This document shows positions 32,745 through 64,000 of a stretch of 64,000 nucleotides of DNA, piece after piece; position 1 is the first letter of the stretch; each line of letters starts with the position of its first letter. The notes beneath the pieces are model-generated. The model had not been told where the DNA came from. It did no database searches and saw only the letters and a program-made list of their open reading frames with translations. The DNA comes from Haliotis asinina (Eukaryota > Mollusca > Gastropoda > Lepetellida > Haliotidae), in assembly GCF_037392515.1 (NCBI RefSeq), contig NC_090280.1, forward strand, positions 18,726,001-18,790,000, read 5' to 3'. Made by a program: the position numbers and the translations under genes.

Positions 32745-34763
32745 AGTGGATTGTTTCTCATTACACTGTGCCTGTAATAAGGTGGATTGTTTCTCATTAC
32801 ACTGTGCCTGTAATAAGGTGAATTGTTTCTCATTACACTGTGCCTGTAATAAGGTGGATTGTTTCTCATTACACCGTGCCTGTAGTAAGGTGGATTGTTT
32901 CTCATTACACCGTGCCTGTAGTAAGGTGGATTGTTTCTCATTACACTGTGCCTGTAATAAGGTGGATTGTTTCTCATTACACTGTGCCTGTAATAAGGTG
33001 GATTGTTTCTCATTACACTGTGCCTGTAATAAGGTGGATTGTTTCTCATTACACTGTGCCTGTAGTAAGGTGGATTGTTTCTCATTACACTGTGCCTGTA
33101 ATAAGGTGGATTGTTTCTCATTACACTGTGCCTGTAATAAGGTGGATTGTTTCTCATTACACTGTGCCTGTAGTAAGGTGGATTGTTTCTCATTACACTG
33201 TGCCTGTAATAAGGTGGATTGTTTCTCATTACACTGTGCCTGTAATAAGGTGGATTGTTTCTCATTACACTGTGCCTGTAGTAAGGTGGATTGTTTCTCA
33301 TTACACTGTGCCTGTAGTAAGGTGGATTGTTTCTCATTACACTGTGCCTGTAATGAGGTGAATTGTTTCTCATTACACTGTGCCTGTAGTAAGGTGGATT
33401 GTTTCTCATTACACCGTGCCTGTAATAAGGTGGATTGTTTCTCATTACACTGTGCCTGTAGTAAGGTGGATTGTTTCTCATTACACTGTGCCTGTAGTAA
33501 GGTGGATTGTTTCTCATTACACTGTGCCTGTAATAAGGTGGATTGTTTCTCATTACACTGTGCCTGTAGTAAGGTGGATTGTTTCTCATTACACTGTGCC
33601 TGTAATAAGGTGGATTGTTTCTCATTACACTGTGCCTGTAATAAGGTGGATTGTTTCTCATTACACTGTACCTGTAGTAAGGTGGATTGTTTCTCATTAC
33701 ACTGTGCCTGTAGTAAGGTGGATTGTTTCTCATTACACTGTGCCTGTAATGAGGTGAATTGTTTCTCATTACACTGTGCCTGTAATAAGGTGGATTGTTT
33801 CTCATTACACCGTGCCTGTAGTAAGGTGGATTGTTTCTCATTACACCGTGCCTGTAATAAGGTGGATTGTTTCTCATTACACTGTGCCTGTAATAAGGTG
33901 GATTGTTTCTCATTACACTGTGCCTGTAGTAAGGTGGATTGTTTCTCATTACACTGTGCCTGTAATAAGGTGGATTGTTTCTCATTACACTGTGCCTGTA
34001 GTAAGGTGGATTGTTTCTCATTACACCGTGCCTGTAGTAAGGTGGATTGTTTCTCATTACACTGTGCCTGTAATAAGGTGGATTGTTTCTCATTACACCG
34101 TGCCTGTAATAAGGTGGATTGTTTCTCATTACACTGTGCCTGTAATAAGGTGGATTGTTTCTCATTACACTGTGCCTGTAATAAGGTGGATTGTTTCTCA
34201 TTACACTGTGCCTGTAATAAGGTGGATTGTTTCTCATTACACTGTGCCTGTAGTAAGGTGGATTGTTTCTCATTACACTGTGCCTGTAGTAAGGTGGATT
34301 GTTTCTCATTACACTGTGCCTGTAGTAAGGTGGATTGTTTCTCATTACACTGTGCCTGTAGTAAGGTGGATTGTTTCTCATTACACTGTGCCTGTAGTAA
34401 GGTGGATTGTTTCTCATTACACTGTGCCTGTAGTAAGGTGGATTGTTTCTCATTACACCGTGCCTGTAATATGGTGGATTGTTTCTCATTACACCGTGCC
34501 TGTAGTAAGGTGGATTGTTTCTCATTACACCGTGCCTGTAATAAGGTGGATTGTTTCTCATTACACCGTGCCTGTAGTAAGGTGGATTGTTTCTCATTAC
34601 ATCGTGCCTGTAATAAGGTGGATTGTTTCTCATTACACCGTGCCTGTAATAAGGTGGATTGTTTCTCATTACACCGTGCCTGTAATAAGGTGGATTGTTT
34701 CTCATGACACCGTGCCTGTAATGAGGTGGATTGTTTCTCATTACACTGTGCCTGTAATAAGGC
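32745..34763. repeat. 36-bp minisatellite (about 56 units), open in several frames
   Basis: The unit is GGTGGATTGTTTCTCATTAC followed by ACTGTGCCTGTAATAA. Its length is a multiple of three, so frames persist for the whole array. One plus frame starts at an ATG at 32,710 and reads 665 codons of the 12-residue KVDCFSLHCACN. Another reads VPVIRWIVSHYT. The minus strand reads 691 codons of RNNPPYYRHSVM. The few variable sites (AAT/AGT and CTGT/CCGT) change an amino acid in at least one position of every frame, so no frame looks preferentially conserved. I treat the array as a minisatellite. Expression of a repetitive secreted or structural protein is possible, but nothing flanking it (signal peptide, splice sites) supports that. 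Confidence 0.92.
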
Positions 34764-45838: not shown

Positions 45839-45893
45839 ATGAACCCGTGTCATCCCTTTTGTCTTCTGATCTTCATGACCTTTCTCTCTGCAA
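45839..45893 (+). CDS. Signal-peptide exon of an Ig-superfamily gene
   Basis: The ATG at 45,839 opens 18 codons, MNPCHPFCLLIFMTFLSA, then one base and a consensus donor, GTAAGT. The hydrophobic core FCLLIFMTFL followed by SA is a typical secretory signal. The exon ends in phase 1, exactly what the Ig exon at 46,678 needs. The joined codon is ACC (Thr), giving a mature N terminus near TTGASLTTSPS. The intervening intron is 784 bp. Confidence 0.7.
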
Positions 45894-46677
45894 GTAAGTA
45901 CAGACACTGTGCTGCCAGACAAACGTTATCAAACAAGACAGCCTTCTATTGTAGAGCTGTGGTTGTATTGCTGTAAATCGATACGCACACGTAAATGAAT
46001 ATACGCATATTTGTGAGATATGTCCAATGTAACAAGCATAAATTCTCAACCGACACAAAGTGGGTCCAGTACGAGGGTCCAGTTTCTTCATGAACAAAGA
46101 AAACGCAATGGTGATACTTGTACATAAAACATTTTGACTCTGTCGACATATTCATTGTTGTACATCCTGCTTCTCCTATGCCAGATATTCAGCTCGAGTG
46201 TTGTATACAGGAAAGGCGCTAGTTACAATGGTTTGTTTTTTTTAAATTGTACATTACACAGAACACAGAAACCATGAATAGGAAGCAAATGTACTGTAAG
46301 TCCTCATGGTCCTTAGTATGGAAATCTACCTTTAGTTGTTGGCAACCTATAGCTCATTTTTATATTGCACTGTCCTCTACAAATACATTGTTTTAGGTCT
46401 AATCACTAGTTTTACATTCTACTCTGTGATATTCTAATTAGTTTTACTGTCCTTCTTTAACAGGGTTTTACAATGTATGTGCTATTATTCCATTTGTATT
46501 TTTTATAATTAATCGTTCCCGTCACGATATGTCTGCAATACTGAAGATGTGACGTTAAATATTAACGCACTCACTCACTATTTGAATCTTGTGACATTAC
46601 GGTGTTACACTTTTATGATACATATTTTCATGGTTTTCATGTTGAATTGGTGTAAATTCATATACTTGCTTTTTCAG

Positions 46678-47058
46678 CCACTGGGGCAAGTCTGACAACA
46701 TCACCAAGTCAAATAACAATAGGGAGCTGTAACCCAACAACTCAGTTGACCGTAAGTTGCAGACCAAATGCACCTGGGATAACACAAGTGTTTGACATGG
46801 AGATAGGCAAGAAGTCTGTTTCTGGCAACAAGCAGCCTATAATACGAATGACCAACACAGATGCGTCAGTACAGGTTGTGGACACAAGTCTACAACAGCG
46901 AATGACAGTCTCGGGGTTTATTAGTGGAGCAACAGGCAGTATACAGTTCATCCTGACAGATCTGAGATGTGATGATGATTCTACGTACTACTGCAACACG
47001 TTGTACTTGGCGGGGACAGCTGGAACTGATGAGGCAACTGCCAACATCACAGCCAGAA
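46678..47058 (+). CDS. Ig-like domain exon 1
   Basis: A 381-nt exon between TTGCTTTTTCAG and a GTGCGT donor, phase 1 at both ends. It encodes one Ig fold of V type: an early beta strand SQITIG, the B-strand Cys in LTVSCRPN, 77 residues, then DLRCDDDSTYYCNT with the F-strand YYC motif. It ends ATANITAR. An additional Cys (IGSCNP) is not shared by exons 2 and 3. With the upstream signal peptide the product is secreted or a receptor ectodomain. No transmembrane exon was found downstream on this strand. The family resembles invertebrate immune-type IgSF genes, but the ligand and exact family are unknown. Confidence 0.75.
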
Positions 47059-47216
47059 GTGCGTAATGATAATGTTAACTAAAACTGATTCAGAAACATT
47101 TGGTGACCTTGAGATACAATACACACGCACACAATATTTGACGTCACACTTTTGTGATACATATTTTCATGCTTTTCATGTTGAATTGATGTAAATTCAT
47201 ATACTTGCTTTTTCAG

Positions 47217-47597
47217 CCACTAGGGCATGTCTGACAACATCACCAAGTCAAATAACAATAGGGGGCAGTAATCCAACATCTCAGTTGACCGTAAGTTGCA
47301 GGCCAAATGCACCTGGGATAACACAAGTCTTTAGCATGGAGATTGGCAAGAAATCTTCTACTGGCTCTAATCAGCCTATAATACGAATGACCATCACAGA
47401 TACGTCAGTACAGGTTGTGGACAGAAGTCTACAACAGCGAATGACAGCCTCGGGGTTCATTAGTGGAGCAACAGGCAGTATACAGTTCATCCTGACAGAT
47501 CTGAGATGTGATGATGATTCTACATACTACTGCACAACGTTGTACTTGGCGGGGTCAGCTCGGAGTGATGAGGCAACTGCCAACATCACAGCCAGAA
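47217..47597 (+). CDS. Ig-like domain exon 2
   Basis: Same length (381 nt), borders and phase as exon 1, starting exactly 539 bp later. The intron before it is 158 bp. It differs at scattered sites, several of them amino-acid changes: FSMEIGKKSSTGSNQ in place of FDMEIGKKSVSGNKQ, and SARSD in place of TAGTD. Both canonical cysteines and YYC are kept. Confidence 0.75.
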
Positions 47598-47755
47598 GTG
47601 CGTAATGATAATGTTAACTAAAACTGATTCAGAAACGTTTGGTGACCTTGAGATACAATAAACACGCACACAACATTTGACGTCACACTTTTGTGATACA
47701 TATTTTCGTGGTTTTCATGTTGAACTGATGTAAATTCATATACTTGCTTTTTCAG

Positions 47756-48139
47756 CCACTGGGACATGTCTGACAACATCACCAAGTCAAATAACAATAG
47801 GGGGCAGTAACCTAACAACTCAGTTAACCGTAAGTTGCAGGCCAAATGCACCTGGGATAACACAAGTGTTTAACATGGAGATAGGCAAGAAGTCTGTTTC
47901 TGGCAACAAGCAGCCTATAATACGAATGACCAACACAGATGCGTCAGTGCAGGTAGTGGACACAAGTCTACAACAGCGAATGACAGCCTCGGGGTCTATT
48001 AGTGGAGCAACAGGCAGTATACAGTTCATCCTGACAGATCTGAGATGTGATGATGCTGCTTCTACATACTATTGCACAACGTTGTACTTGGCGGGGACAG
48101 CTGGAACTGATGAGGCAACTGCCAACATCACAGCTAGAA
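47756..48139 (+). CDS. Ig-like domain exon 3
   Basis: 384 nt, one codon longer than exons 1 and 2 because of DDAASTYYC in place of DDDSTYYC. It starts 539 bp after exon 2, and the intron before it is again 158 bp. It is phase 1-1 and the frame is intact. It shares VSGNKQPIIRM with exon 1 and the GGSN start with exon 2, suggesting gene conversion between copies. Confidence 0.75.
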
Positions 48140-48303
48140 GTGCGTAATGATAATGTTAACTAAAACTGATTCAGAAACGTTTAGTGACCTTGAGATACAA
48201 TACACACGCACACAATATTTGACGTTACACTTTTATGATACACATTTTCGTGCTTTTCACGTTGAATTGATGTAAATTCAAATACTTGCGCATGCTTTTT
48301 CAG

Positions 48304-48540
48304 CCACTAGGGCATGTCTGACAACATCACCAAGTCAAATTACAATAGGGGGCAGTAATGCAACATCTCAGTTTTTCTGTAGGTTGCAGAACAAATGCAC
48401 CTGGGATAACACAAGTGATAGGCAAGAAGTCTATTTCTGGCAGTAAGCAGCCTATAACGACCAACACAGGTGCGTCAGTACAGGTTGTGGACACAAGTCT
48501 ACAACAGCGAATGACAGCCTCAGGTTCTGTTACTGCTTTA
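48304..48540 (+). pseudogene. Decayed fourth Ig exon
   Basis: It starts after the same TTTTTCAG acceptor, 548 bp after exon 3, and matches the other copies to about 48,530. It has a frame-breaking extra base in the B-strand region (CAGTTTTTCTGTAGG where the others have CAGTTGACCGTAAG). It lacks 12 bp and 6 bp further on. It diverges completely before the F strand, so the second Ig cysteine is gone. It is a pseudo-exon, and the array's 3' boundary lies here. Confidence 0.75.
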
Positions 48541-49977
48541 ACTTCACATATAATGTTAATGTGTGTTTTGGACTCATGTATATAGCCACTTAGACTAAGA
48601 TTATAATAAATTTTATTTTGGCTGGGTTTCTTTACCACGTGAGTGTATAGTGTATTTGACTAAAACACATACCTGATAAAAGCTAAAGTTTGTCCGTGAC
48701 GGGTAATCTGGTTTCCGATTTATCGCAAAAATGCCATTTAACACTTGCAGATATCCTGTCGTATGAAGAGCTTCATGTTCTACTCAAATGTTTTCAACTT
48801 TCTATACCAGAACGACAAACATTCAAACCGAAAAGGTGTATTTAAAATGCAAGGAGCTCGTTTCAAGTCGGTATCTAAATCAGGCCTATATTTGTGTTCT
48901 GCACATGAACCTTATACGTCACCCTTGTAGCAGGGTCAGGACTACTGCCTTATCTGCTCTGTTTTCATCCAGGTCAACAATAACCAAGGGAAACGTCTGT
49001 TGAGACCAGCAGTGGGATAACCACCATGGAGAAAAAAAAGAATATTATACGTGTTGTTTTCAACTGTGCATTTGATCGAGAAACAGTTATCTGGAGCAAA
49101 ACCAGCTGCTCAAATCGTGTCTTCAATTTTACCTATGATTGCTGAAAAATACTAAAGGCAGCACTCCATGGTCGATGTCCGCCTGGATAGCATCGAAGAG
49201 CGAAAAAAGAAGACACGTGAAACTGAAACGAAATAAAATTAATATTCATGCGCTTTACTGTAATCATTATACCTTGGCATTGGGTGAGTGCGGGTTCAAG
49301 CTTACCATAAGGAAACAATGAATGATGAGTTAAAAGGTCCATTTTAAGTTCTCTCCCCTTGAAGTTCATTTCCGCTTAAGCACTTAGTGACTTCCTTTTC
49401 CCAATATTTTAAGCCTCCAAGTAATGTTGTGTTAACATTATTGCGGGTTTTGAGTTCTGCTCCGGAAACGAAGCCCACCTAACCATTAGACTAACACCAA
49501 AACGTTTCCATGGAAAAACAAAAAAATACAAGTACCAAAACTCTGGAAACAGCAAAAGGCACAACCATAGGTTCAGATTATAATATCTATCAAATTTAGT
49601 CTAAAAATATTGAACATTTTTTGTGTTTTGCTCAAGCAACAAAATAGGTGAAACTGTCAAGGTACATGATGCCGGCATATTTACCCTTTTTGTGTAATAT
49701 TTACCATCAACCCCTGCTGCCTGATGTGGATATGGTGGTCAGACTCAATGACTTCTTTGTTGTCTTGCATCAGCTAGGTCTCAATGTTTGCAGTAGCTAA
49801 GATACACAGCGTTCACAAACATCAACGCTATGTATCTTAGCCAGGGTTGGGGGTACAGGCAGAACTCTTACCGTAATATATAGCGATGTTTTGAAACACG
49901 TTTATGAAAAAATATGTGAAATTTAGTATACTGGCCGTGACAACGTGATTTTCATTATATGGACAAGACTTTTTTTT

Positions 49978-50131
49978 ATGGATGACAACTTCGTTAATGT
50001 GAAGAGTCACGACGTTTCGAAGTATGTTCTTATTTCTTCATCTCACTTCCTCACCATCAAGGTGCTGATGAAGAAGTAAGAACACACTTTGAAACGTCGT
50101 GACTCTTCACAGTAAAGAAGTTGTCATCCAT
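49978..50131. repeat. Inverted repeat of Penelope-terminal type
   Basis: Arms 49,978-50,042 and 50,067-50,131 are about 90% reverse-complementary over 65 bp around a 24-bp loop. The right arm contains GAAACGTCGTGACTC and AAAGAAGTTGTCATCCAT. Compare GAAACGTCG and AAAGAAGTTGACTATCCAT in the Penelope-like end at 41,930-42,000. CTGATGA precedes the GAAAC, as in hammerhead cores. It is probably the head-to-head termini of another Penelope subfamily. Confidence 0.6.
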
Positions 50132-50596
50132 CAAAACTCGTGTCTTTATGTGTATTATTTCTAAATGCCCGTCGAAGACTCTATGAAAGTGAGAGTTAAC
50201 AGGTCTGTGTCTTAAGCCAGACTTGGGATAAGGGTACTGGCCAATTTGTTTGAAATGACACAGCAAGGTCTTTGAGCTTGACCATCTGAAGTTAAGCATG
50301 GGGTGCTGAGGACCAAAATATCTATACTGGACATCCCACCAACACCAGATTGTGTGAAGCCTGTATCAGTAAACATAAAACACATGGTAACACGATGATG
50401 CTTTGGACAGTCTGCATGTTAATCCACTAGAAATAACTTTGGAGATGCTTTTTTTTTGTAAGCTCCTCTATACCATCAAGCCAATGATGCATTCCACTTA
50501 CCCATGAAACACAACTACAGAGAACATGCAATAAGGATCATGGCACACATAAGGGACATAACTCTGAACATTCACCCCTCAGATGACTGTCCCCTT

Positions 50597-50820
50597 TTCG
50601 ACTCGCTTTAGACCTGATGTTCAATAACCCATGCTTGTCGAAAGAGGCAACTAACAGGATCAGGCTGCTGACAATGACGCCAATTGTCATCGAGTCCCAA
50701 TTACGTAGAACAATGCTTACGTTGTTGATCACTGGATTGTCCTCTCTTGACTCAATTACTTACAGACAGCTGCCATATAGCTGGAGCATTGCTGAGTGCA
50801 ATGTAAATCATTCACTCCCT
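50597..50820 (-). mobile_element. Abalone-type SINE core
   Basis: The reverse complement contains GCACTCAGCAATGCTCCAGC, TAATTGAGTCAAGAGAGGAC, AATCCAGTGATCAACAACG and CCATGCTTGTCG-type motifs in the usual order, shortened and diverged. Confidence 0.8.
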
Positions 50821-51269
50821 AATTCACTGTCTCATTCCTATGAGTTACCACCATATTGTAAAGTAATCCGTGACATTCACATAATTCAACTAAAATTTTA
50901 TTCAGATTATATAAATCACAAAACATAAAAGAATGAAAATCTAAATTGAGAAACCTCCAGCAACAATTATATCTATATATTAACATGGCATTGTATACAT
51001 GTGTATATGGATATATCTCTTCCAGCTAAAGCAACAACAATGTAAATAAGATCTAACACACTTTTAAATAATATAACTATACCTGAATTTACATGTCACA
51101 TGCCTTCCTTAAAAAAGTGGGTGGGGGAGTGCAGGAAGACAAGAGGGTATATTCCCAGGTACTTTCCAAATAACTGGTTAATGTTACAGCACTTATCAAT
51201 GCACTGTAAAATCGTGAAACTATACTTTCAGTACAAATGAGAAACTTTCTGAATAATATGTGGAGAGGC

Positions 51270-51420
51270 CGGGTAAGTTGATTTATAAATCTTCTGGCAA
51301 TACTCCAGCAATATCATGGCCGTGACACCAGAGAAGAGGGCTTCACAGATTGTACCAAACAGGGGAATCAAACCCAGAACTTACACATCCCGAGTGAACA
51401 AATTAACCACTGGGCTTCAA
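51270..51420 (-). mobile_element. tRNA-derived SINE
   Basis: The reverse complement begins GAAGCCCAGTGGTTAATTTG (A box), has GGGTTTGATTCCCC (B box) and a TCTGTGAAGCCCTCTTCTC body. Confidence 0.8.
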
Positions 51421-52602
51421 TACAATTAAGAATAATATGTGTAGGACATCTGACTAGTCTGGGTTTTTTGAAAAAGCCATAAATTATGGTGTGATCCAAG
51501 AATTGGATGTTCAATGATCCATCTAGGATTGAAACTGTCAAGGGATGACATAAATATGTCAATGATAAAAACAAACAAAATTCTGCTTATCAGTTTACTC
51601 CAAACTGTTCAGTATATGGTTTGACATCAAGGTCATTATCACAGAAGACATCAGATAAAGGGAGGTAACTGAGAAAAACACAGAGTTTAAGGTCATGAAC
51701 CTTTCACTTTATCAATATATTACTTCCTTTGATAGATAAGATAGAATATTTCATAAAAAAAAAAACTAAAATAAATAAAAACTATTTCATATTCTTCAGA
51801 TATGGTTCACCTGAGATCTTCACGATCTGGAATGATTACTTTTAAATTAACCACTATTTTTCTTTGGCTGATCTTGAGAATGTTGATATGCTCAAATCCT
51901 TTTACACGACTAGAATATCGTTACCTATTTTCTCGCAAATTTGTGTCCAAAACAGATGTCTCTTTGGGGTGGGGTGCGGGGGTTTGGCGGGGGTAAATGT
52001 TTCATTTCTTTTATATTAGAACTGACATCTGTAGTATCCAAATTTATGGCAACATAATGACAGCATCAGGTGTAAAGTATACAAATCTGCACACCTATTT
52101 ATGCTAATACCTGCATAAAGGTACAAACATGCTGACATCAACTCCTATGTCAATAATAAAAATATCTAATGATAATAATCTTAATATTCATCATTTACAT
52201 GCAACAGACTTTAGACAAGGACACAAAATTCATGACATCTTTCAGCGCACACTACTATATGTAACCACTTGCCCCATTCCATGACCCACAAAAAGACTTG
52301 TTGCAGAACAGTATGCCATTATTGCCAAGATTCGTGGCAAAGCAGTCAAATTGTACATAGGAAAATGTATTTTGATTCATAAAAATGATGGCACAAACTT
52401 TGAAACTTTGCTGAACTATGGAAAGCATAATATAAACAAATAGTTCTAGGCCACTTTCATCTCCCTGCCCTTTTGTTTTTAGACAAGGCTCAGTCATAAA
52501 CATAGCCACGGGAGGGGTACAAGTTGCCATCCAGGATGCCAGAATGACACAAGTAGTTACAAATGCACAAACTACAAAAAAAGCTTAGCTCATACATTTG
52601 TC

Positions 52603-53106
52603 CATCCTCGATATCTCCAGGGTATACGTTCCGAAAAGTCTCCACTATACCCATCTACAGGTTGGCCCTGATAATTTTATTAACTCCCTTTGCGGGCTCC
52701 GCTTTCTCACAGTAGCCAATCAGCATGGTCGCCGCTATAACCGAACTTGCCAGTGCCAATAAAGGTAGCAGTTGCAACTGCAAAGGTTTGCTTGCCGTGT
52801 GACTCACAATTTGGGGAAATCATACAGGCAACTTTATAGGTCTGAAACCTTTTTAAAAACATATGCAAGAAATCTATCTACCTCTTTCAGAGAACCTACA
52901 CATGGTTTGTTTGCCAAGTTTAATCGGTTAGAGAATTTAAAAAGCGAAAGTGACTTGTGACTGGTTTGCTCAACTTAACAGCGTAGACACCTGATTGGAT
53001 AAAAAGCCAGCCAAGGAAGGTAATAAATTTATTGGGATGAGCCGTAAATGCATCCAGGGTATAGTGGAGACTTTTTGGAACGTATACCCTGGAGATATCG
53101 AGGATG
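52603..53106. mobile_element. 504-bp MITE with 50-bp terminal inverted repeats and a 9-bp target duplication
   Basis: Left TIR 52,603-52,652 (CATCCTCGATATCTCCAGGG onward) and right TIR 53,057-53,106 are reverse complements with one mismatch visible. ACATTTGTC flanks both ends (52,594-52,602 and 53,107-53,115). There is no transposase frame, so it is non-autonomous. A 9-bp duplication with long TIRs fits Mutator-like elements best. Merlin or hAT relatives (8-9 bp) are alternatives. The near-identity of the TIRs suggests a fairly young insertion. Confidence 0.85.
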
Positions 53107-54074
53107 ACATTTGTCAGCCAATCAACAAATAGTAACTACTGTCTCTACAGAGACCGTTTTCTTCTTTATGAAAACATAAACGGAACATAGGAACTACTTG
53201 CTTGGTCAGCCAATCAAACATCATAGAATCACTTGCACTTTATACAATCATCTTCAATAAAGAATATATTTTGCAAGTCAGTATCTATAACAGACAGGTT
53301 CTAACATTGTAAGTGTATTATATGGGTACACACATTTGATCACTCTTGCACAACATTTCAACATCAGCCGAACAACAAAATTATATGAAAGTACTGGGCC
53401 TAGATTTTTGAAGCTCTCTTAGCACTAAAACACGTACCATACACGTAGTGCCACACATTACCAATAAGTTACATCTTAGTGCTGAGACAGCTTTGAAAAG
53501 CCAGGCCCTGAATAAATAGCCAAACACTATATACATTATAATAATAGAAGACTAGTATATTTTAGTACAATACACAAAAAATTGAGCACAGTGTGACTAG
53601 ACATATTGGAAACAGTGGGGACAAAATATACATATACATGAAAAAAATAATGCATTCGGCAAAATATATTGACTAAAAGTAAAAAAATATTTTCAACAGA
53701 TCAGATTATACTGAGGGAAAACATAGAGGATCCCATAAAAACACAAGTGTTCCTTTATCTATTGCCTAGGTTTCCTCTGAAGTTGTGTGGTACAAAGCTT
53801 GTGAAGGAACCAGGCAACTAAGGAGCTTATATGCTTTCATGTGATCCCTTATTTTTTTTCCCCCAGTATAGGTCATATCTGGATTATAGCAAAGTTGACA
53901 AGATCATTTCATACCAGATTAGAATATTTTCTAAGGCTCCTTTGAGCAGGAGGTTTACAGGTGGACTAAATGAGTTTAAACCGAATTGCCCACATCTCAA
54001 TTCACATTTGTTGCTGATGAATCGTCGACTTTTGAAAGCAAAAGGACCTCTGTCCAAATAGCAACAAGAAGATA

Positions 54075-54700
54075 AAGTCATCAATACCCCAAATATGCCT
54101 ACTAGTTATGAGTACACCACTAGATCAAGCTATGTGCCAAGTCTAGTGAAGAAATAGTGAATAGTTGTAGACTCCAGAAAAGAGCACTACCACAAGTTTC
54201 AGTCTAAGTCAAACTTGTTGCCATGGAGATGCCAAAAATATATTATTCAGAATTCAAAAACTACCTAAAGGCACCAGTACACCAACATGCCAATCAATGT
54301 GTCAAGTTTGGTGTAGAAATAGTGACAGGTTTTAGAGTTTTGCTCCGGAAAAGAGCACTACCAATTGCATTTGAAGTCAAACCTGTTGCCATGGAAATGC
54401 AAAAAATATTTTATTCAGAAATCCAAAACTATCAAAGGCACCAGTACACCACCAGAGAAAGCTATGTGTCAAGTTTGGGGAATAAATAGTGAATGGTTTG
54501 AGTTTTGCTCCAGAAAAGAGCACTACCACCAATTTCACTCGAAGTCATTTGATGCCATGGAAATGCCAAAAATATTTTAATTTTGTATTCAGAATTCCAA
54601 ACCTACTAAAAGGCACCAGTACACCACTAGGCCAATCTATACGCCAAGTTTGGTGAAGAAATAAAAACAGTTTTAAAGTGCTCTGGAAAAGATAAATGTG
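54075..54700. repeat. Tandem repeat of about 172 bp, three to four diverged copies
   Basis: AAAAGAGCACTACCA recurs at about 54,180, 54,350 and 54,526, each followed by TTGCCATGGAAATGC-like sequence and AAAGGCACCAGTACACCA. A single related fragment (GCTGCCATGGAAACGGG) lies at about 62,400, so the unit may be a dispersed repeat that duplicated locally. Confidence 0.75.
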
Positions 54701-55390
54701 CACGGAGGGCATTTTAATTAATACCCCTCACAAAACGCGCTTCGGGGTACAACTAGAACTAGGTCAAGAGCATGTGCACCCATAACAATAAAGAAACTGA
54801 AACAAACATCTATGATTAAGTAAGAAGAAAGGTGAAAATTGAAAGGTCAGTGACTATTTCTAATCCATGTAAATAACATTGTGTTTCAGTAAACTGAACT
54901 TATTGAACAGTGTTTTTTTGAAAAAGAAATGTTTTCACAGGCTCAAGTTTATTTTGTCAGGCTTGTTAACAAACAATATACAACAGGATGTCTTTCAGTA
55001 TTATTTCAATATTCATGAAGACCAACAAGCAAACAAAGTAGTAAGAATACACAGATGAAAGGAAAACTGTCACCACTGTGATGGTCAGTTTTGTCAGCAA
55101 GAATTCTATTATTGACATAATGGGTGTATATAAGAAGCATGACTTCTTGTGACTTTTGAGCATCCATAAGTGGATTAAATGCACACTGTTATCCTGCACC
55201 ACATGGGTCAATAATTTATTCTGCAAAATCTGCAATAATGGGTGTCAACAAAATGATGCTGTGAGATTGAGCAACAATACACACCACACCTCACCATATC
55301 ACAATTTTATAACATCAACAATAGGGGTTTGTCAACAAAAGCTGGAAATATCTAAAGCATGAGTTCAGGCACAAACAAACACAATAATTA

Positions 55391-55522
55391 AGTGAATGAG
55401 TGAGATTGGTTTTACACCATTTATAGCAATATTCAACCAATATGACAGTGCGGGATACCAGAAATGGCTTCATGCATTGTTGAGAATCAAACCCAAGTCA
55501 TAAATGTGACCACCCACCACAA
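55391..55522 (-). mobile_element. tRNA-derived SINE, diverged
   Basis: AGTGAATGAGTGAGATTGG is followed by TAGCAATATTCAACC, TGGCTTCATGCATTG and an inverted B box (GAATCAAACCC). Confidence 0.65.
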
Positions 55523-55689
55523 GCAAACTCAATAAGGTAAAATCAGTTCTGTGGTCAAAGTTTATTCCAGTGGCTCAAGGACACTGACTAATTGCTGCGT
55601 CTGAAAAGACAAATAAACCTTAGTGATAAATCAGGCACAGACTCAAACCCATGATCAACGAAGTCTGGCATCCATTAGGAAATAATACT

Positions 55690-56550
55690 GGAACAAGTGT
55701 TCAAATGTGGAACATGTAGAATGTGGATCTGTGGATATGTAAAATCAGGTTCTGCAGAATGTGGCTCTGTGGAACCAGGTTCTGTAGAATGTGGATTTGT
55801 TGAATCAACTTCTGCAGAATGTGGATCTGCTGAATTAAGTTATGTAAAATTTGGATCTGTTGAATCAAGTTCTGATTAAAGTGGATCTGCTGAATCAACT
55901 TCTGCAGAATGTGGATCTGTAGAATCAGGTTCTGCAGAATGTGGATATGTTGAATCAACTTCTGCAGAATATGGATCTGTGGAATAGGAATCTCTGGCAG
56001 GAGAATATGTGGAATGTGGTTGTACAAAATGAGGCATATGGATCCTTTATGGAGTGTAGATCTATGGAATATGGTTCAGTGTGACCAGTGGAATGTGCAT
56101 CTGTGGAATACATACTGTGGTATCTGAGAACCAGTAACTTTGAAACATGGATCTGTGGATTGTGGTTCTCTGTAATATGGAGCCTGATACTTTTGGAGTG
56201 TGGATATATGAAATATGGAACCTGGAGCCTTGGGGCTAATGAGTAGGATAGGTGTTTGTAGACATAACAAGCAATCAAGGATATGACGGGTGTCTGTGGA
56301 CAAGATATGAGTGTGGATATGATGGTTATCTGTGGATATGATGGGTGGGCCTTTGGGTATGTCAGGCGTCTGTAGACATGACATGTATCTAAGGATATGA
56401 CAGATGTCTTTGGATATGTCAGGTGTCTGTGGAAATTTCGCGTGGGTCCGACAGGTGTCTAGATATAACAGGTGGGCATATGGAATCAACAAGTATCTGT
56501 AGATATGACAAAAGTCACGGAGGACAAAAAGCTGTGGATTACAACAATCT
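55690..56550. repeat. Minisatellite of about 30 bp, grading into diverged units
   Basis: Between about 55,730 and 55,985 the unit TTCTGCAGAATGTGGATCTG followed by TTGAATCAA repeats roughly nine times. To about 56,550 the repetition is looser (TCTGTGGATATGACAGGTG-like). The short frames across it are by-products. Confidence 0.85.
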
Positions 56551-57285
56551 GTGGATAGAATGAGATATGTTTGTGAATAATACTGCTATGTCAGACATTA
56601 ATTTGACAAAAGTATATTTTCAAGAAAACTATGGGAGCATCATCAGCAGCAGCAATATGATGTCAGAATACTTGACTGATTCCAGTATTTCACATTAAAT
56701 GAAAGACATCGTATATGTGAAGCCAATACATAGGGCCCTATTGTCCCTCTGCAAGTGTCAAATCCAACTGGTATGACTGTAAGTATGCAGATTATTGTAT
56801 TTGCTACCAAAGCTGACAAAGAGTGTTCTCTTCCATTTAACACTTACAAGATGTCTTTTAAAAACTTTGCTAATCCCTTAAAACATGAAGATGTTAAACA
56901 AAAATGAGACCTCAGAAAACCTTGGCCTTTCTTTCCAAACTTCAACTTTAACATAACATATCACTGTTGATAGATTATAAAGACAATGCAAGGGAAGCAA
57001 CTCTTTGATCGATCAGTCCAAGTTGTGTAGTGATGTCACATACCATGTAATCTGGACATCCCTATCACATGTCAATTCAGCATTTTCAAAGAAGAAAATA
57101 TATCTTTTCTCTCAGATCTGGATGTGGTCATGCTTAGGAGAGATTCTTGGAACAGACCCTGGAACAGACTCCTGGAACAGATTCTTGGCACTGATTTCCT
57201 GGAATTGATTCAAGACAAATTCCAGGATCTGATTCCTGGTCTTAATACCTGCAACCAGCACTCTTGACCAATTCCGAGGTCTCCC

Positions 57286-57447
57286 TTACTGATCCTTCTC
57301 CGGGTCATCAAGATGAGGCTGGTATCCCAAGGGAATCTCTGCCCACTTCTGCCTCTCCCCTCCTGCCAGGATCCCATACATGATGGCACCACAGCCATAT
57401 ACAGCTGCCGCCAGATAGAAGATGATCTGCCATTGACCAGCATTGCC
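57286..57447 (-). CDS. SLC17 last coding exon
   Basis: Follows the acceptor AATGGTTTCCAG, phase 0. It encodes GNAGQWQIIFYLAAAVYGCG, the last membrane span, and a charged cytosolic end with GERQKWAEIP, then PEKDQ and TAA. Confidence 0.9.
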   Translation of the reverse strand, partial: GNAGQWQIIFYLAAAVYGCGAIMYGILAGGERQKWAEIPLGYQPHLDDPEKDQ

Positions 57448-60400
57448 CTGGAAACCATTCCAGAGATGGGTTAAAATAATGTTTTGCATCAGCATTATCA
57501 TTTACATATGGTAAATATAGATTTCTGTAGATATTCAATATAAAGTTCTCGCCTGGGACAGTTATCTTTTCGCTTTAACGTAATTTTTATTTTTCTATTT
57601 TCATGCACTGAAACATGTCACTCATTTATTCATTCATTCATAAGAAGAAGATGTAGAGGAACACAGAATGCATACAGGTACAAAAGCTATGGAAAACCTG
57701 CCTTGTTATCATCCTAAGCCTATTAAGACTTTAGAACCCGTCAAGATAGATATTTAGCAGCAGCTATTTGTTGGAATATGTGACTAACAGGATCCAGTGG
57801 ACAGGTTCAGACTTCCTTGAAAGTCATTTCAGAAGTTGTACAGATGAACAAAAATGGATAGTCAATTCCTTTATTGCAATGGGTGTGACGTTTCGGTGTA
57901 GGTACTAACACCATTATCGAGCATCACAAAGAACTTGGTTTTCCTTCATGTTCAGACTTGGTGTACACATTTCATCATATCCGAATGTGGATTTATCATG
58001 GTTTATGATGTCATCAGATTGTCTGGTCTAAACTTGATTATTTTCAGACCAGAATAACAAAACTGGAATTATCCTGAGTGCAGTGATAAACTGGTTGGTT
58101 GGTTCTTTATATGGTGGCAGTCTGTAAATAACTGAGTCTGGACCAGACAATCCAGTGATCAACAGCATGGACATCAATCTAAGCAACTGGGTTACAATGA
58201 CCAACCAATGGTCAACCAAGTCAGCCAACCTGACCACCCAATCCCATAAAACAAGCAAACAAACAAAGAGACATCCAGTTTGGCAAAGGGGGACAACTGC
58301 AGCTACCTTGCTGGTAACAATGGCACTGGTAAGGCTCGGGGAGATGATTCCAGGAATGGTGGCAAATGTGTTGGACAGCCCCATCAGGATGCTTGCATAC
58401 TGCGGGGCAATGTCAAGATGGTTGACACTGAATCCAGACCAGGCAAATCCCCCTAGACCGACGGCAATGGTCAGACATGTCATCCCAGCAACAGGTGTCA
58501 TGAGATAGCCAGCGGCTATCATAAACACTGCCTGGATAGCAAATGCTGAAAAACAGATGTAGAGGCATCATGACCATGGTGACCTTTAAAATGACTATGG
58601 TGTTTGATTGAATCAGAACAGGAAATAGTTACAAACACAGACACAGACACACAGAGACACACACACACACACACACACAGACACACACACACAAACTCAG
58701 ACACGAACTCAAGTTGCCGTCATTTTGAAGGTGTCCAGTAATCAGATTATGTGATTAATAATGGTACATCCTCATATAATTATTCCATGCAATGATTTAC
58801 ACCCTGTACTCTGATGATTTTGACCTGCAATGGAGTCCACCTTCACAAGATCGAGACCCAACATAGGAAATCATGTAGACCACTTTTGCCATGTCCACAA
58901 GCTTTTCTAATGGCAGATTTCACACTGCCCGACCTTGACATCAATTCATCCAAGTATGTAGATAAGAAACGATTCATCAAGGTTCAAACATCCACCAAGA
59001 CTATATAAACAAACAACCCTCAGAACAAAAATAGTTCACTTCAGAAACCCGAGCCATCAGTCCAAAAAGGCTGCTGTTTAGTCACTGTCCCACCTTACCC
59101 CCACAAGTAAATATCCTCCTGACGATGCCAGTGGACACGCCAAGTGGACCCCGCATGATGTCAGCAAGATGGCCGCTAGTCAACACAACCAGGCCCATCA
59201 CCAGGTATGGCAGAGCAGCCAAAAATCCTCCCTGAAACAGATGCAGGTCAGAATATATGACACAGTTACATGCACTCAAACTTCACACATAAAATGAAAC
59301 AGTATACTCTTCTGAAACATAACAGATAAGATAAAACTGTTCATTCTTCTGAAACTCAAACATTGCATAGTCATAATATTATATCAGTAAGGGGGCAACG
59401 AGGTAGCCCTTAAAGCGTTTGCTTGTCTTGACTAAGAAACAGGTTTGATGCCCCATATGCACAACAATGATATTGCTGAAATATTCCTAAATAGAGATAA
59501 TTCTTCATTAGTTTTCAATGACAATGTACATCTGTCAACACTGTAGTACTATCAGAGGGGTACACAAAGAACGTAGTCTAGACTACCAGTTGTCCGACTT
59601 TCATTTTGTGGAAGTCGCGGTGGCTGAGCGGGTTAGGCGGCAGACTTTGTGTGCTGGCGATTAGGTGCCTGACTCGGTGCGAGTTCGAATCCCGGATGGG
59701 ACTCAACCAAAAAAGTACTAGAATTTGTACTTTACTGAGAAAGTGAAATCCCAAATATGACATATGTGACATATGTTGTGTAAGGTATGTAATAATACTG
59801 AGAAAATGATCAATTCTCAGGTAAGGTGAGCTAACAAATGCACCTGATCCAGTGCAGTGTGTTGATACTTACCCCCAATATTATGGCAATCTAACACCTT
59901 GGATTAGCCAGGTAAGTTATACTAACAATACTAATCAAATAAGGTGAGGTATACTCACCACTAGGTAAGGTGAGGTAATAACAGTCATCATCTAGATACC
60001 TTGAGCTGGAAACACTCATCAACTAGGTAAGGTGAGGTAATAATAGTCATCAACTAGGAAAGGTGAGCTAGCAATACTCATCAACTATCTCTGGTGAGCT
60101 AACAATATTCATCAACTGTCTATGGTGAGCAAACTCATGAGCTAGGCATGGTGAGCTAATAACTCACCTGATCCAGTTTAAAATGCAGCACAGAGTTGAG
60201 GAAAGTAGGCAGCTCAGTCAGCCAGGTATAGAAGCCCCAGTTCTCGGCAAAGTGAGCCACGACAATTGCCCACACCGGCAGTGACGTCAACATGGACAAC
60301 CATGGTGGGTGGATCCTCTGTAACACAAGGCGACTACTACATGAAACACATACTTTTGGCACTGAGTACACTTCTGTCTCATGGAGGAATGCTTTGTGAC

Positions 60401-62734
60401 TAGAAAATACAGGTAAGCTTGTGATGTCATTACAATTCTTGTTTTGTTTGTGTCATATTTCTGGGTTACATCAGCGTATGAAATGGGCTAGATTTCTGTC
60501 AGATTGTCACAATTTACAGCTAGCTAGATCAACGGTGTGGTAAAATTTTCAGAAAACATGTTCCTTACATATGAGTAAATTCACCTTATCTTAAATTCTA
60601 TTTATTAAACTGAGCATTATATTTTGACTTAACAATTCCTGTTTGAACATTTAGCTATTGCATCATGTCTCTGGCTCAGTGAATTATTTGTTAAGCGATA
60701 TTTGTTCAGAATGTCTGGTCTCATTCAGTTCATTTTGAGCTGGTAACATTTTGATGTTGCCAGCCCTGATGGCTGGCTGGGTTTTTGGCTTATTTCATAC
60801 ACTGGTAACAAATGTTACCGTATATACCAGTGCATACTGCAAGTTTTTCATACCTAGAATGAGGGGGTCCCATCATACGCGGGTATACACGGTACATTTG
60901 AATTTGACCACTTTCTAAAGAGCATTGAGGTGTTTTTAAGATTCTCCATTTAGAAATGATGCCAAATCAGGCGTTTCAATGTAAATTTCATCATCTAACA
61001 CACTCCAATATTGTATATTATTTTGAACATGTTATGTTTTTTAATGTACTGTGGCTCTCTTACTCTTCACTTGTTTCACGTTGCATCCCATGTGATCAAT
61101 CAGATCTGTCTGAAGTGCTCATAAAATCTCCAGTAAAGTGAATGCTATCTGTTGAGCCATGACGATCCAAGTTAGAACTGGACTTCAGGTACCCAAGCTT
61201 GTCGTAAACGGCATCTAACAGGACCGAGTGATCAGGCTTGCTGACTTGATAGACAAATGTCATTCTAACCCAACTGTGTAGATCAATGCCTATCATATTT
61301 GTCACAAGCTTGTCTTGTCCAGACTATAATTATTTTCAGACCGCTGCAATATAGCTGGAATGCTACGCTACCTTTGTTTGTTCATCTGTGTAGCCTATAG
61401 CCTGTTGGATGTACTCCAGCTCAAAGTTGCTGATGGTTGGATGTTTGGCTGGACTCTCCGAGATAAAGATGCACCAGAAGAGGAACCACAGAATGCCCAC
61501 TGACCCTGAAGAGATAATAATCATAATTAAAACAACTATCAAAGTCTTTGGAATTGGCCCATATGCAGCCAAAGATGTATCTAAGCACCTACTCCTTGAT
61601 AAACACAAATGGAATTAGGTATATAACTGTATAGACTGCACGCCACAAATCAGTTGAAGTTAAGCAACACTGGGTGCAGAGCGTCCTAGAATGGGTGACC
61701 ACCTTTGGCAGCTTGACTTCCGGGACTTTCCAGGATTTCAGTCCTGCCCAAGAACGGGGTACATGTGATACATGTGGTCCCACCTTAGGCAGGTGAGTTT
61801 GTTCAAACTTGCCTCTGTCCATCAAGCAGAAGATGGATACCCTGTGGGATAAGTTGTGAGACTAATAACCTTCTAGTGCCTTACTAGCTTGGGTTATCTG
61901 GGGTAATAATGATCAGATTGTGCACTTTGAGCTGGATATCTAGCCTGGAAAAGGCACATTATAAATATTCTCATTATTTTATTAAATTTGTAACAAGTAA
62001 CTAAATCTCTGTCAAACAGAAGATCAAGAAGTGGTAATACAAAAACAAAAACTGGTCGTCTTGGGGATAAGTCTAAAACACACTCTGACAACTGAGTCAA
62101 CTTGTTGACACGGTAACAAGAAACATAAAAATAAATAGTAAAAGGCGCCATTTGACAATGTGATCAGTGTGTGTGTTAAGGTTTGCGAATGAATAGTCAC
62201 TAGTTTTTATCTGGACATGAATACAACCGTAGTCATAGAAATGAATAAGTGAAGACAAGAAAGTATATGTGATCCTATACTGCTTTCATTGTATGCTGTA
62301 ATAGTAATTTGAGTGAAATTCTAGAAATATATATTGGAACACTTGTAGTTTCATGTTTTCCTTATTCATTTCCATGATTACATGAACAGAGTCAAAGCCA
62401 AACATGCTGCCATGGAAACGGGAAAAATAAAAAATCTAGAAATCCCTAAACAGCAAAAATCACTACTTGTTAACCTGCTCTTGGTGAGTGCAATGTCTAG
62501 TGGATGAGTTTCCTTTTGTTATTGAGAAACAAAAAGGACGGACGGACAAACGAAAAACGCACAGATATGCGGATCACTGTATCTTTGAAGGAGAAACCAA
62601 CATTACAATAGCTTGACTCTGAAGAACAGAGGTCCCATTCTTACCAAAGACATAGAAAATTGATTGCCATCCACCCGAGCTTGCTGCGAGGGACCCACAT
62701 GCAGGCATTGCCAACACAGTTCCCAAGTAGGCAC
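57286..62734 (-). CDS. SLC17-family transporter (sialin/VGLUT-like), six 3' exons
   Basis: Six exons join in phase: 62,734-62,645; 61,505-61,372; 60,317-60,168; 59,231-59,099; 58,545-58,307; 57,447-57,286. Together they give 908 nt, about 302 residues of a family usually near 500. The N-terminal third lies beyond the window. SLC17 members are 12-span major-facilitator organic-anion carriers (phosphate, sialic acid, glutamate) of plasma, lysosomal or vesicle membranes. The hallmark NHLDIAPQYASILMGLSN is present, with FATIPG after it. LTSLPVWAIVVAHF, WLTELPTFL, SALPYL-like AALPYLVMG and the final QWQIIFYLAAA are also family signatures. It ends PEKDQ at a TAA. All splice borders are GT-AG. The substrate cannot be told from this part. 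Introns are loaded with repeats, but every exon visible is intact. Confidence 0.92.
57815..57950 (-). mobile_element. Penelope-like terminal fragment
   Basis: The reverse complement has GATAATGGTGTTAGTACC, CTACACCGAAACGTC and TGCAATAAAGGAATTGACTA, matching the 3' end of the Penelope-like element at 41,905-42,010. GAACTTGGTTTTCCTTCAT here is inverted relative to its place in that copy. It is a solo terminus in an SLC17 intron, and no coding part remains. Confidence 0.7.
58110..58248 (+). mobile_element. Abalone-type SINE core
   Basis: TATATGGTGGCAGTCTGTAA, GAGTCTGGACCAGACAATCC, GTGATCAACAGCATGGACAT and GTCAACCAAGTCAGCCAACC. It sits just downstream of an SLC17 exon donor. Confidence 0.85.
58307..58545 (-). 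CDS. SLC17 exon with the NHLDIAP signature
   Basis: 239 nt between CTGTTTTTCAG and a GTAGCT donor. It enters in phase 1 and leaves in phase 0. It encodes spans with VFMIAAGYLM and LTIAVGLGGFAW, then NHLDIAPQYASILMG and a further span ending LTSAIVTSK. Confidence 0.92.
58636..58695. repeat. (CA)n-rich microsatellite
   Basis: ACACAGACACAGACACACAG grades into uninterrupted ACACAC. Confidence 0.95.
59099..59231 (-). CDS. SLC17 exon
   Basis: 133 nt between CATCTGTTTCAG and GTAAGG, entering in phase 0 and leaving in phase 1. It encodes GGFLAALPYLVMGLVVLTSG, then HLADIMR and RRIFTCG, the span and loop of the second half of the carrier. Confidence 0.92.
59392..59490 (+). mobile_element. tRNA-derived SINE, 3'-truncated
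   Basis: GAGGTAGCCCTTAAAGCG head, B-box-like AGGTTTGATGCCCC, then GATATTGCTGAAATATTCC. Confidence 0.65.
59612..59770 (+). mobile_element. tRNA-Leu/Ser-like SINE head
   Basis: Perfect pol III boxes: TGGCTGAGCGG (A) and AGTTCGAATCC (B). The tRNA-like part runs 59,612-59,702 with a long variable region. The acceptor stem does not pair properly (AGTCGCG against GGGACT), and a non-tRNA body (AAAAAGTACTAGAATTTG) follows. I favour a SINE over a working tRNA gene. Confidence 0.55.
59815..60155. repeat. Degenerate minisatellite of about 37 bp
   Basis: Imperfect repeats of AACTAGGTAAGGTGAGGTAA followed by TAATAGTCATC in an SLC17 intron. Each unit carries a donor-like GTAAGGTGAG. Confidence 0.75.
60168..60317 (-). 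CDS. SLC17 exon
   Basis: 150 nt between CCTTGTGTTACAG and GTGAGT, phase 0-0. It encodes RIHPPWLSMLTSLPVWAIVV, then AHFAENWGFYTWLTELPTFL, a strongly family-typical central stretch. Confidence 0.93.
61190..61362 (-). mobile_element. Abalone-type SINE core
   Basis: The reverse complement has ATTCCAGCTATATTGCAGCG, then GTCTGAAAATAATTATAGTC, GGGTTAGAATGACATTTGTC and CTTGTCGTAAACGGCATC equivalents. It abuts the SLC17 donor at 61,371. Confidence 0.75.
61372..61505 (-). CDS. SLC17 exon
   Basis: 134 nt between TTATCTCTTCAG and GTAGCG, entering in phase 1 and leaving in phase 0. It encodes SVGILWFLFWCIFISESPAK, then HPTISNFELEYIQQ, the end of the first six-span half and the start of the central loop. 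Confidence 0.93.
61640..61740 (+). repeat. 5S rRNA-derived sequence
   Basis: GAAGTTAAGCAACACTGGGT and GAATGGGTGACCACC, with the spacing between them, match the internal promoter half of eukaryotic 5S rRNA. The 5' part is recognisable only as a short scrap and the 3' third is not 5S. It is either a 5S pseudogene or the head of a 5S-derived (SINE3-type) SINE. Confidence 0.65.
62645..62734 (-). CDS. SLC17 exon, first in the window
   Basis: 90 nt between TATGTTTCTGCAG and GTAAGA, phase 1-1. It encodes AYLGTVLAMPACGSLAASS, then GGWQSIFYVFG, a family-typical span pair. The next upstream exon is outside the window. Confidence 0.92.
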
Positions 62735-62774
62735 CTGCAGAAACATAGATACATTAACCATGGACACATGTATA

Positions 62775-63062
62775 AATACACTAGATGCATAAATGCCGGA
62801 AGACACGATGTATAGAGGCTGGAACACCAGATGTATAAAGGCTGCGACACTGGATGTATAGGAATTGAAACATTGGATGCATAGAGGCTGGAACACCAGA
62901 TTTATAGTGGCTGGAACACCAGATTTATAATGGCTGGAACACCAGATTTATAGTGACTGGAACACTAGATCTATAAAGGCTGGGACACTGGATGTATAGG
63001 AATTGGAACATTGGATGCATAGAGGCTGGAAAACCAGATGTATTGAGGCTGGAACACTAGAT
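62775..63062. repeat. Minisatellite of about 21 bp
   Basis: GGCTGGAACACCAGATGTAT-like units repeat about 13 times with substitutions, ending at the Tc1 insertion. Confidence 0.85.
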
Positions 63063-63065
63063 GTA

Positions 63066-64000
63066 CAGTATGGTTCAAAATTATTGAGAATAGCTAAAGC
63101 ATTTCATATTATTAAACGAGAACAAATCAGGTAAAATTGAATGTATTGTGAAAGTGAAGTGACCTTTTCATGTTGTGTAGGTAACAATTTAATATTTTAT
63201 CAAGTCTCCTTGAGCTTCACGGCACAGTCTAAGACGGGTAGGCATACTTCCTATCAGAGAGGTTAGTGTCTCGTGAGTTATGCTGTCCCAGTATCGGACC
63301 ACTTCTCTCTTCATGTCTTTAATTTTTGTCAACCCCTTTTGATTCACACATTCCTTCATCATCCCCCAAATGTTCTCAATGGGATTTAAGTCAGGACTAT
63401 ATGCAGGAAATGGTAATGCAGTCACATTTTTCTCCTGAAACCGCTGCTTGGCATGTTTTGCGGTGTGTTTAGGATCATTATCTTGCTGCAAAATCCAGTC
63501 ATTTCCATAAAACACATGTGCACTTGGAAGGAGAAAATTATCTAATATGTTAGTGTAGCGTTGACTTGTCAGATTTCCCTCAAACACACACAGCGCGGTC
63601 GTTCCTAATAAGGATATCCCTCCCCATACATGAAACTTTGGGCTGTATTTAGGTCGTCGATACAACGGTGCTGACGCAGACTTTGTCCATATTTTCACAT
63701 TATTGGGATATACCCATATTGAGCTTTCATCAGTAAAAATCACATTTTCCCAGTCAAAGTTTTCATGTGCCAAACACCACTCAACACGCCTGTCTTTATG
63801 TTCTTGTTTCATGAGAGGAGAAGTAATTCCAGTCTTTTTCTCCCATCCAAGATCAATCAAATTTCTTCTAACTGTAGATTTTGATACAACTGTTGATCCC
63901 CTTTCTATCATTTCATACCTGATGTTGGAGATGCTTGCCCTTTGCTTTTTAGACGCTAAAATTCCTAGCCGGACGCGATCTGAGAAGTCCAATTTTCTGG
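63066..64000 (-). mobile_element. Tc1/mariner element, cut by the window edge
   Basis: After a TA at 63,064-63,065 the inverted-repeat end CAGTATGGTTCAAAATTATT begins, as in Tc1 elements. The other end lies beyond the window. The transposase runs inside it on the minus strand. Confidence 0.88.
63189..63998 (-). CDS. Tc1-like DD34E transposase (C-terminal part, open to the window edge)
   Basis: The frame is open from the stop at 63,189 to the last base of the window, about 270 residues of a family near 340. It lacks only the N-terminal DNA-binding part, which continues outside. The catalytic triad is complete: Asp in IFTDES, Asp in LQQDNDPKHT and Glu in PDLNPIENIWG, with 34 residues between the last two. 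A helix-turn-helix remnant (SKSTVRRNLIDLGW) precedes it. WVYPNNVKIW and VWGGIS are also family-typical. The enzyme excises and inserts the element at TA. No disruption is seen, so this copy could be recent. It lies in or upstream of the SLC17 gene. Confidence 0.92.
   Translation of the reverse strand, partial: RKLDFSDRVRLGILASKKQRASISNIRYEMIERGSTVVSKSTVRRNLIDLGWEKKTGITSPLMKQEHKDRRVEWCLAHENFDWENVIFTDESSIWVYPNNVKIWTKSASAPLYRRPKYSPKFHVWGGISLLGTTALCVFEGNLTSQRYTNILDNFLLPSAHVFYGNDWILQQDNDPKHTAKHAKQRFQEKNVTALPFPAYSPDLNPIENIWGMMKECVNQKGLTKIKDMKREVVRYWDSITHETLTSLIGSMPTRLRLCREAQGDLIKY

Follow-up and report, generated by a model that had tools for sequence, protein, structure and literature searches.

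Organization of the locus

The window analysed here is a 64,000-nt stretch of DNA (C1:18726001-18790000) from the 1.14-Gb Haliotis asinina genome assembly of 159 contigs. On its forward strand lie a signal-peptide exon, three intact V-type immunoglobulin (Ig) exons in tandem, E1 to E3, and a damaged fourth copy of the same exon (Table 1). Each intact V exon is preceded by AG and followed by GTGCGT, successive starts are 539 nt apart in both intervals, and the joined frame is open across the signal exon and E1-E3. An initial annotation of this DNA had described a signal exon with a GTAAGT donor, phase 1-1 exons of 381, 381 and 384 nt, 158-bp introns and a 539-bp repeat spacing, all of which proved exact to the base. 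Its count of three intact Ig exons also stands, but the damaged copy at 48304 had been overlooked.

Table 1. Features of the V exon array and its flanks (window positions)
Feature	Position	Strand	Description
5' region conserved with paralogous locus L013	45336..46190	+	upstream flank, signal exon and start of intron 1; blastn 78.7% over 897 columns
Exon 1, signal peptide	45839..45893	+	55 nt, MNPCHPFCLLIFMTFLSA, ends in phase 1, donor GTAAGT
E1, V-type Ig exon 1	46678..47058	+	381 nt, phase 1-1, extra Cys17
Intron between E1 and E2	47059..47216	+	158 bp
E2, V-type Ig exon 2	47217..47597	+	381 nt, phase 1-1, extra Cys4
Intron between E2 and E3	47598..47755	+	158 bp; AATAAA at 47657
E3, V-type Ig exon 3	47756..48139	+	384 nt, phase 1-1, extra Cys4
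Fourth V copy	48304..~48541	+	3' half missing, +1 frameshift; right edge approximate
Homology to part of the L016 C2-to-transmembrane intron	48579..48998	+	blocks 48579-48913 and 48951-48998
AATAAA, candidate poly(A) signal	48605..48610	+	missing at the aligned place in L016

The three exons are ~92-95% identical in DNA. The sole indel among them is one codon, and the introns between them are without indels too. The DDAAS codon retained in E3 is present in the DNA of all nine paralogues compared. Differences are denser in the exon than in the two intron flanks together for E1 and E2 (31 of 381 against 7 of 158 positions) and for E2 and E3 (31 of 381 against 6 of 158); for E1 and E3, they are similarly frequent in exon (18/381) and flanks (7/158). 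In a comparison of the sequences, the loop differences pointed out earlier (VSGNKQ versus STGSNQ, TAGTD versus SARSD) read as quoted. From where they lie relative to R74 and the YYC motif, the variable loops appear to correspond to the C-C' turn and the F-G (CDR3-like) loop.

The array exons encode divergent V-type domains

Searching the PDB with E1 (phmmer) gave 605 matches at E≤10, and the best 60 of these were nearly all antibodies, scFvs or nanobodies, bearing out the assignment of the gene to the Ig superfamily. The best E-value, 4.8e-6, is summed over the chain, with no single stretch passing alone, while the best chain with one passing stretch reached 3e-4. Matches labelled IL-18 agonists, Glue molecule and 230AS-88 are presumably antibody-derived. 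A profile built from 14 family members matched 67 PDB entries at E≤0.01, the best 60 of which were likewise antibody-type (one label was mixed with LRRC8D). The core cysteines, C27 and C105/106 (the second within STYYC), are present in E1-E3. Yet E1 scored just 13.3 bits against the Pfam V-set model, for which the curated cut-off is 26, E2 and E3 had no V-set match at E≤1, and one of the 14 family members matched at E≤0.1 (E 0.0024). Moreover, E1-E3 have no tryptophan in strand C, or anywhere else. On this combination of antibody-type PDB matches, weak V-set scores and the missing strand C tryptophan, we classify the domains as V-type Ig, though divergent. Pfam matches of the V exons to VirC2, which fell below its own cut-off, and to MerB and others, which had weak E-values, were rejected. 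An AlphaFold prediction of the array domains, with three near-identical sequences as input, gave a mean pLDDT of 41, too low for a usable model.

A family of V-C2 genes in the same genome

A protein search of the genome with E1 (E up to 1; 27 candidates) listed 24 places, namely the four array copies, ten close loci and ten distant or doubtful ones. The close loci, which are 62-83% identical to E1 in protein sequence, lie at C1:17.44, 18.93 and 18.95 Mb, with the other seven at 31.06-31.28 Mb. A single V exon is found in each of the ten paralogous stretches (10 kb each), with an acceptor at the expected place in nine (not L011) and a GT donor in nine (not L014). A signal exon that matches the one in the window in length, phase and GTAAGT donor is present at five loci (L011, L012, L013, L015 and L016). 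High identity within the array, recurrence of the V exon at ten more loci and recurrence of the signal exon at half of them together argue that the array is not a product of chance.

Downstream of the V exon, all ten close loci have a C2-like exon, and two distant loci (C1:59.29 and C16:25.08 Mb) likewise pair a V exon with a C2-like exon. The C2-like exon of L011 had no PDB match at E≤1; a genome search with it listed 16 places (18 candidates). L012 is a V-C2-C2 gene, with C2-like exons at 5997-6353 and 6706-7062 (reversed orientation). An exon resembling FN3 by eye is open at L010 and present as a copy with a stop at L009, and none was found at the other close loci within the stretches examined. 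A transmembrane stretch was recognised at four of the ten close loci, by hydrophobicity at L011, L015 and L018 and by homology at L011, L015 and L016; for the other six, the fetched stretch is possibly too short to show it. Read from these exons, the predicted family architecture is signal peptide, V-type Ig, C2-like Ig, an FN3-like domain at two loci, and a transmembrane exon.

Loss is common in this family, as at least three of the ten close relatives carry lesions: L009 has a C2 frameshift and the FN3 stop, L014 a truncated V exon and a C2 frameshift, and L016 a stop near the C2 end and loss of the first V cysteine. In addition, L011 lacks a clear V acceptor. With some members that have a transmembrane exon, a cluster on one chromosome and some members in decay, the V-C2 genes would form a set of candidate recognition receptors. 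Among the titles and abstract openings listed for openly licensed papers, none describes this family or the V array, which is weak evidence of absence. Two distant V-type exons ~1 kb apart at C1:16.899-16.901 Mb (L038) may represent another V-V gene.

The window gene shares its V exon and splice phase with all ten close paralogues and its signal exon with five. Its 5' flank is common to L013 and L016, and among the loci compared L013 is closest on this side. Each paralogue combines a single V exon with C2-like sequence, whereas the window has three V exons, one broken copy and no C2. These comparisons indicate a relationship that the initial annotation had missed: the window gene is, by its exons and flanks, a derivative of the V-C2-transmembrane family that has lost its C2 exon.

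A deletion probably removed the C2 exon

The fourth V copy retains the same acceptor as the intact copies and, besides the lesions listed in Table 1, differs from them by gaps of 12 nt and 6 nt. Spliced at this ordinary acceptor, it could serve as a terminal exon, in which translation would stop at TAA (48444-48446). The candidate poly(A) signal downstream is one of four AATAAA motifs in 46001-52000 and may be there by chance. An internal acceptor at 48382/48383, which would restore the frame downstream, was rejected as weak (score -6.0); 530 of the 3959 AGs in the window score at least as well in a matrix of 17 distinct family acceptors, a matrix that is small and not decisive, the ordinary acceptor of the fourth copy itself scoring just -1.0.

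Sequence beyond the fourth copy matches part of the intron that lies between the C2 and transmembrane exons of L016. Window positions 48579-48913 align at ~75% to L016 8025-8356, and 48951-48998 at ~83% to L016 8421-8468; in L016 the C2 exon (5691-6047), the matched intron and the transmembrane stretch (9716-9844) follow one another in the same orientation. The simplest reading is that a deletion probably extended from the middle of a fourth V copy into the C2-to-transmembrane intron, fusing the two.

Homology searches of both strands detected neither a C2 homologue within the 64-kb window nor a convincing transmembrane homologue in 48141-64000. The best transmembrane-like match, near 61378 (13 residues, E 0.08), and mildly hydrophobic stretches at 49571 (mean 1.93) and 51832 (mean 1.88) were taken as chance. 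Could the V exons instead be spliced to C2 or transmembrane exons outside the searched stretch? The hydrophobicity scans covered the + strand, to ~56140 and ~54140, and the stretch that was read ended at the right end of the window. However, the two-strand homology searches speak against such exons nearby, and among the 16 C2 places listed genome-wide the nearest, at 18.93-18.95 Mb, are on the opposite strand. We regard splicing to outside exons as very improbable.

Because no transmembrane exon is recognised in 48141-64000, we infer that the product is secreted. Our preferred reading, which we put at about an even chance, is that a member of a small family of V-C2-transmembrane receptors was recently rearranged here into a gene of secreted type. 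In this model, unequal exchange would have expanded the V exon to four tandem copies, between which segments were probably swapped, and a deletion would have joined the middle of the fourth copy to the intron beyond the C2 exon, removing C2. A transmembrane exon is no longer recognisable. If transcribed, the gene would encode a secreted product in which three V domains are followed by a short tail derived from the fourth copy. Its most likely role would be that of a soluble binder or decoy for the ligand of the membrane relatives.

Such a locus would provide a compact case in which an invertebrate Ig receptor lost its anchor and gained copies of its recognition domain within one germline stretch, with unrearranged relatives remaining in the same genome for comparison with the array. 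The array is informative on the evolution of Ig receptors and is not a new kind of system.

Substitution pattern of the V exons and the possibility of decay

NG86 estimates of dN/dS are 0.70 (E1-E2), 0.44 (E1-E3) and 0.49 (E2-E3), and the median among eight paralogues (28 pairs, without L014 and L017) is 0.42. These values suggest mild constraint in the V family and give no sign of diversifying selection. The earlier proposal of a diversifying immune-type receptor is not supported by the substitution data.

The same data bear on whether the deletion that removed C2 simply killed the receptor, so that the three open V exons are the young remnant of a decaying gene. Decay would account for the broken fourth copy and for the lack of a C2 and a recognised transmembrane exon in the window, and damage to the relatives L009, L014 and L016 offers precedents. 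The array estimates of dN/dS do not fall significantly below 1 (Fisher p 0.39 for E1-E2, 0.051 for E1-E3 and 0.078 for E2-E3). Furthermore, in simulations a V exon stayed open ~60% of the time after 15 random substitutions, so an open frame by itself is a weak indicator of function. On the other hand, the signal exon, the three V exons and all of their splice borders are intact, and a single codon is the only indel among E1, E2 and E3, although the introns are free of indels as well. Between the array and the eight paralogues dN/dS is 0.32-0.39, most of that history being older than the array. We consider decay a substantial possibility, somewhat short of an even chance. We prefer a secreted three-V protein, on the grounds that the signal exon, V exons and splice borders are intact and that the dN/dS estimates lie below 1 and near the family value.

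Possible exchange between array copies

The initial annotation had proposed duplication plus conversion as the origin of the array. Tandem duplication of the Ig exons is firm. To assess exchange, shared-derived sites were polarised with nine paralogues as outgroup, leaving out ten sites at which the outgroup is split and one ambiguous site. E1 and E3 share seven derived sites, six at exon positions 63-152 and one at 349, the outgroup being divided 6 to 3 at three of the seven; E1 and E2 share six columns (four events) at 200-301; E2 and E3 share one site, at 12; and 28 sites are private. Along the exon, the shared sites follow a modestly non-random order (p 0.015, or 0.040 with doublets collapsed). 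When the exon is divided into a left, a middle and a right block, the block trees conflict, with E1+E3 supported at 0.967 on the left and E1+E2 at 0.933 in the middle, for borders that were chosen after the shared sites were seen.

A GENECONV-like test on 11 sequences (without L014 and L017) gave no globally significant pair involving E1, E2 or E3, the best being E3-L009 (p 0.153), and within-array pairs were absent from the 15 strongest listed. Three pairs of other paralogues passed (p <0.001, 0.024 and 0.037), in a test that rate variation along the exon can inflate. Thus, conversion as proposed finds support in the conflicting trees and the blocks of shared sites and none within the array in the GENECONV-like test, and we regard exchange of segments between array copies as supported in part by the sequence patterns. 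At positions 121-180, E1 and E3 have the same sequence, from which L009 departs at 1 of 60 sites, and at 101-160 L018 is nearest to E2 (3 of 60 different). This closeness suggests that older variants are shared or that loci have exchanged sequence.

Cysteine pattern of the array domains

In seven of nine close paralogues aligned (L014 left out), the V domain has cysteines at 27, 97 and 106 only; the exceptions are L016, without Cys 27, and L017, without Cys 97. Among the distant V domains, L045 has cysteines at 27, 97 and 106 and L046 at 15, 27 and 106. Every array domain has a fourth cysteine, which gives it an even number: Cys17 in E1, and Cys4 in E2 and E3, also encoded by the fourth copy. 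Cys4 is probably one mutation that was spread by duplication. The C2 exon of L011 encodes three cysteines, and the apparently unpaired V cysteine of the paralogues is possibly bonded to the odd one in C2. The cysteine pattern would be explained if the receptors have an interdomain V-C2 bond of this kind and the array has formed new bonds in its place, although L017 is at odds with this. More speculatively, the receptor may have become a soluble multi-V protein at this one locus and then been repaired by selection through the fourth cysteines. We consider this history unlikely; if it were true, the added cysteines would allow bonds within or between V domains, and the array would encode a soluble decoy or opsonin that is stable and multivalent.

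Possible alternative use of the V exons

Because all V exons are phase 1-1, any combination would remain in frame, and the array could act as a diversity device in which copies are used as alternatives, skipped or included to the exclusion of one another, giving one gene several V domains or several product lengths. The tandem duplicated Ig exons of arthropod Dscam offer the likeness (PMC3236188). Short forms would also be possible, through an in-frame stop that directly follows each V donor (SA-stop) and through the AATAAA at 47657, a motif absent from the two other copies of that intron stretch. Unlike Dscam, however, the window has just three usable copies, and these are 86-92% identical with most sites invariant. 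In addition, the one intron that was folded, the first of the array, has no excess of RNA structure (z +1.6, with 193 of 200 shuffled sequences folding equally well or better). We judge a diversity device quite unlikely. Retention of the intron after a V donor would yield a soluble form, ending at the SA-stop. In the predicted fold of the first array intron, the donor GTGCGT (47059-47064) is pairable with ACGCAC (47125-47130). A search of the window against Rfam gave no match at gathering score.

Relation to known Ig proteins

VCBPs combine V domains with a chitin-binding domain. Oyster IgIT / CgIgIT2 receptors, which we take to be transmembrane proteins with ITIMs, differ from the V-C2 family in that the short paralogue tails read show no clear ITIM by eye. 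They are alike in being molluscan Ig-superfamily receptors (PMC11999971). The Lymnaea molluscan defence molecule can be likened to the predicted product as a molluscan protein of several Ig-like domains (PMC11999971). Gastropod FREPs have one or two Ig domains followed by a fibrinogen domain and, like the genes considered here, belong to a germline multigene family with signal peptides and V-type Ig domains (PMC7588048). Four V-C2 paralogues differ in having a transmembrane exon instead of the fibrinogen domain. Membership of the FREPs was rejected, as neither the window nor the paralogous loci appeared among the PF00147 matches listed (150 of 243 candidates scored). Fibrinogen-domain exons do form a cluster to the left of the window, at C1:18.37-18.68 Mb, and the genome as a whole has at least 153 such matches.

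Other features of the window and genome

Egg lysins are known from abalones and their close relatives. Elsewhere in the genome, six exon matches to Egg_lysin (PF01303), from 12 candidates, lie at C14:26.67-26.92 Mb, two of them with stops; none of 14 control genomes matched. Two of the six, compared with solved structures, returned egg or sperm lysins, bar one chance hit (E 0.37), and we take the C14 exons to be abalone lysins. They mark the genome as abalone-like, which supports the initial annotation in placing the gene in a mollusc.

Within the window, an open frame on the minus strand at 63189-63998 resembles a Tc1/mariner-type transposase (DDE_3, E 2.6e-17), with an HTH_Tnp_Tc3_2 match just below the cut-off (E 7.1e-7). 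A minus-strand frame at 58028-58567 resembles by eye the end of an SLC17-type transporter, and a Pfam scan assigned it no family. An inverted repeat at 49973-50136 forms a foldback, its 70-nt arms being 91% complementary and separated by 24 nt. Long tandem arrays occupy 1-14969 (~92 x 162 bp), 23971-30667 (82 x 82 bp) and 32746-34762 (56 x 36 bp).
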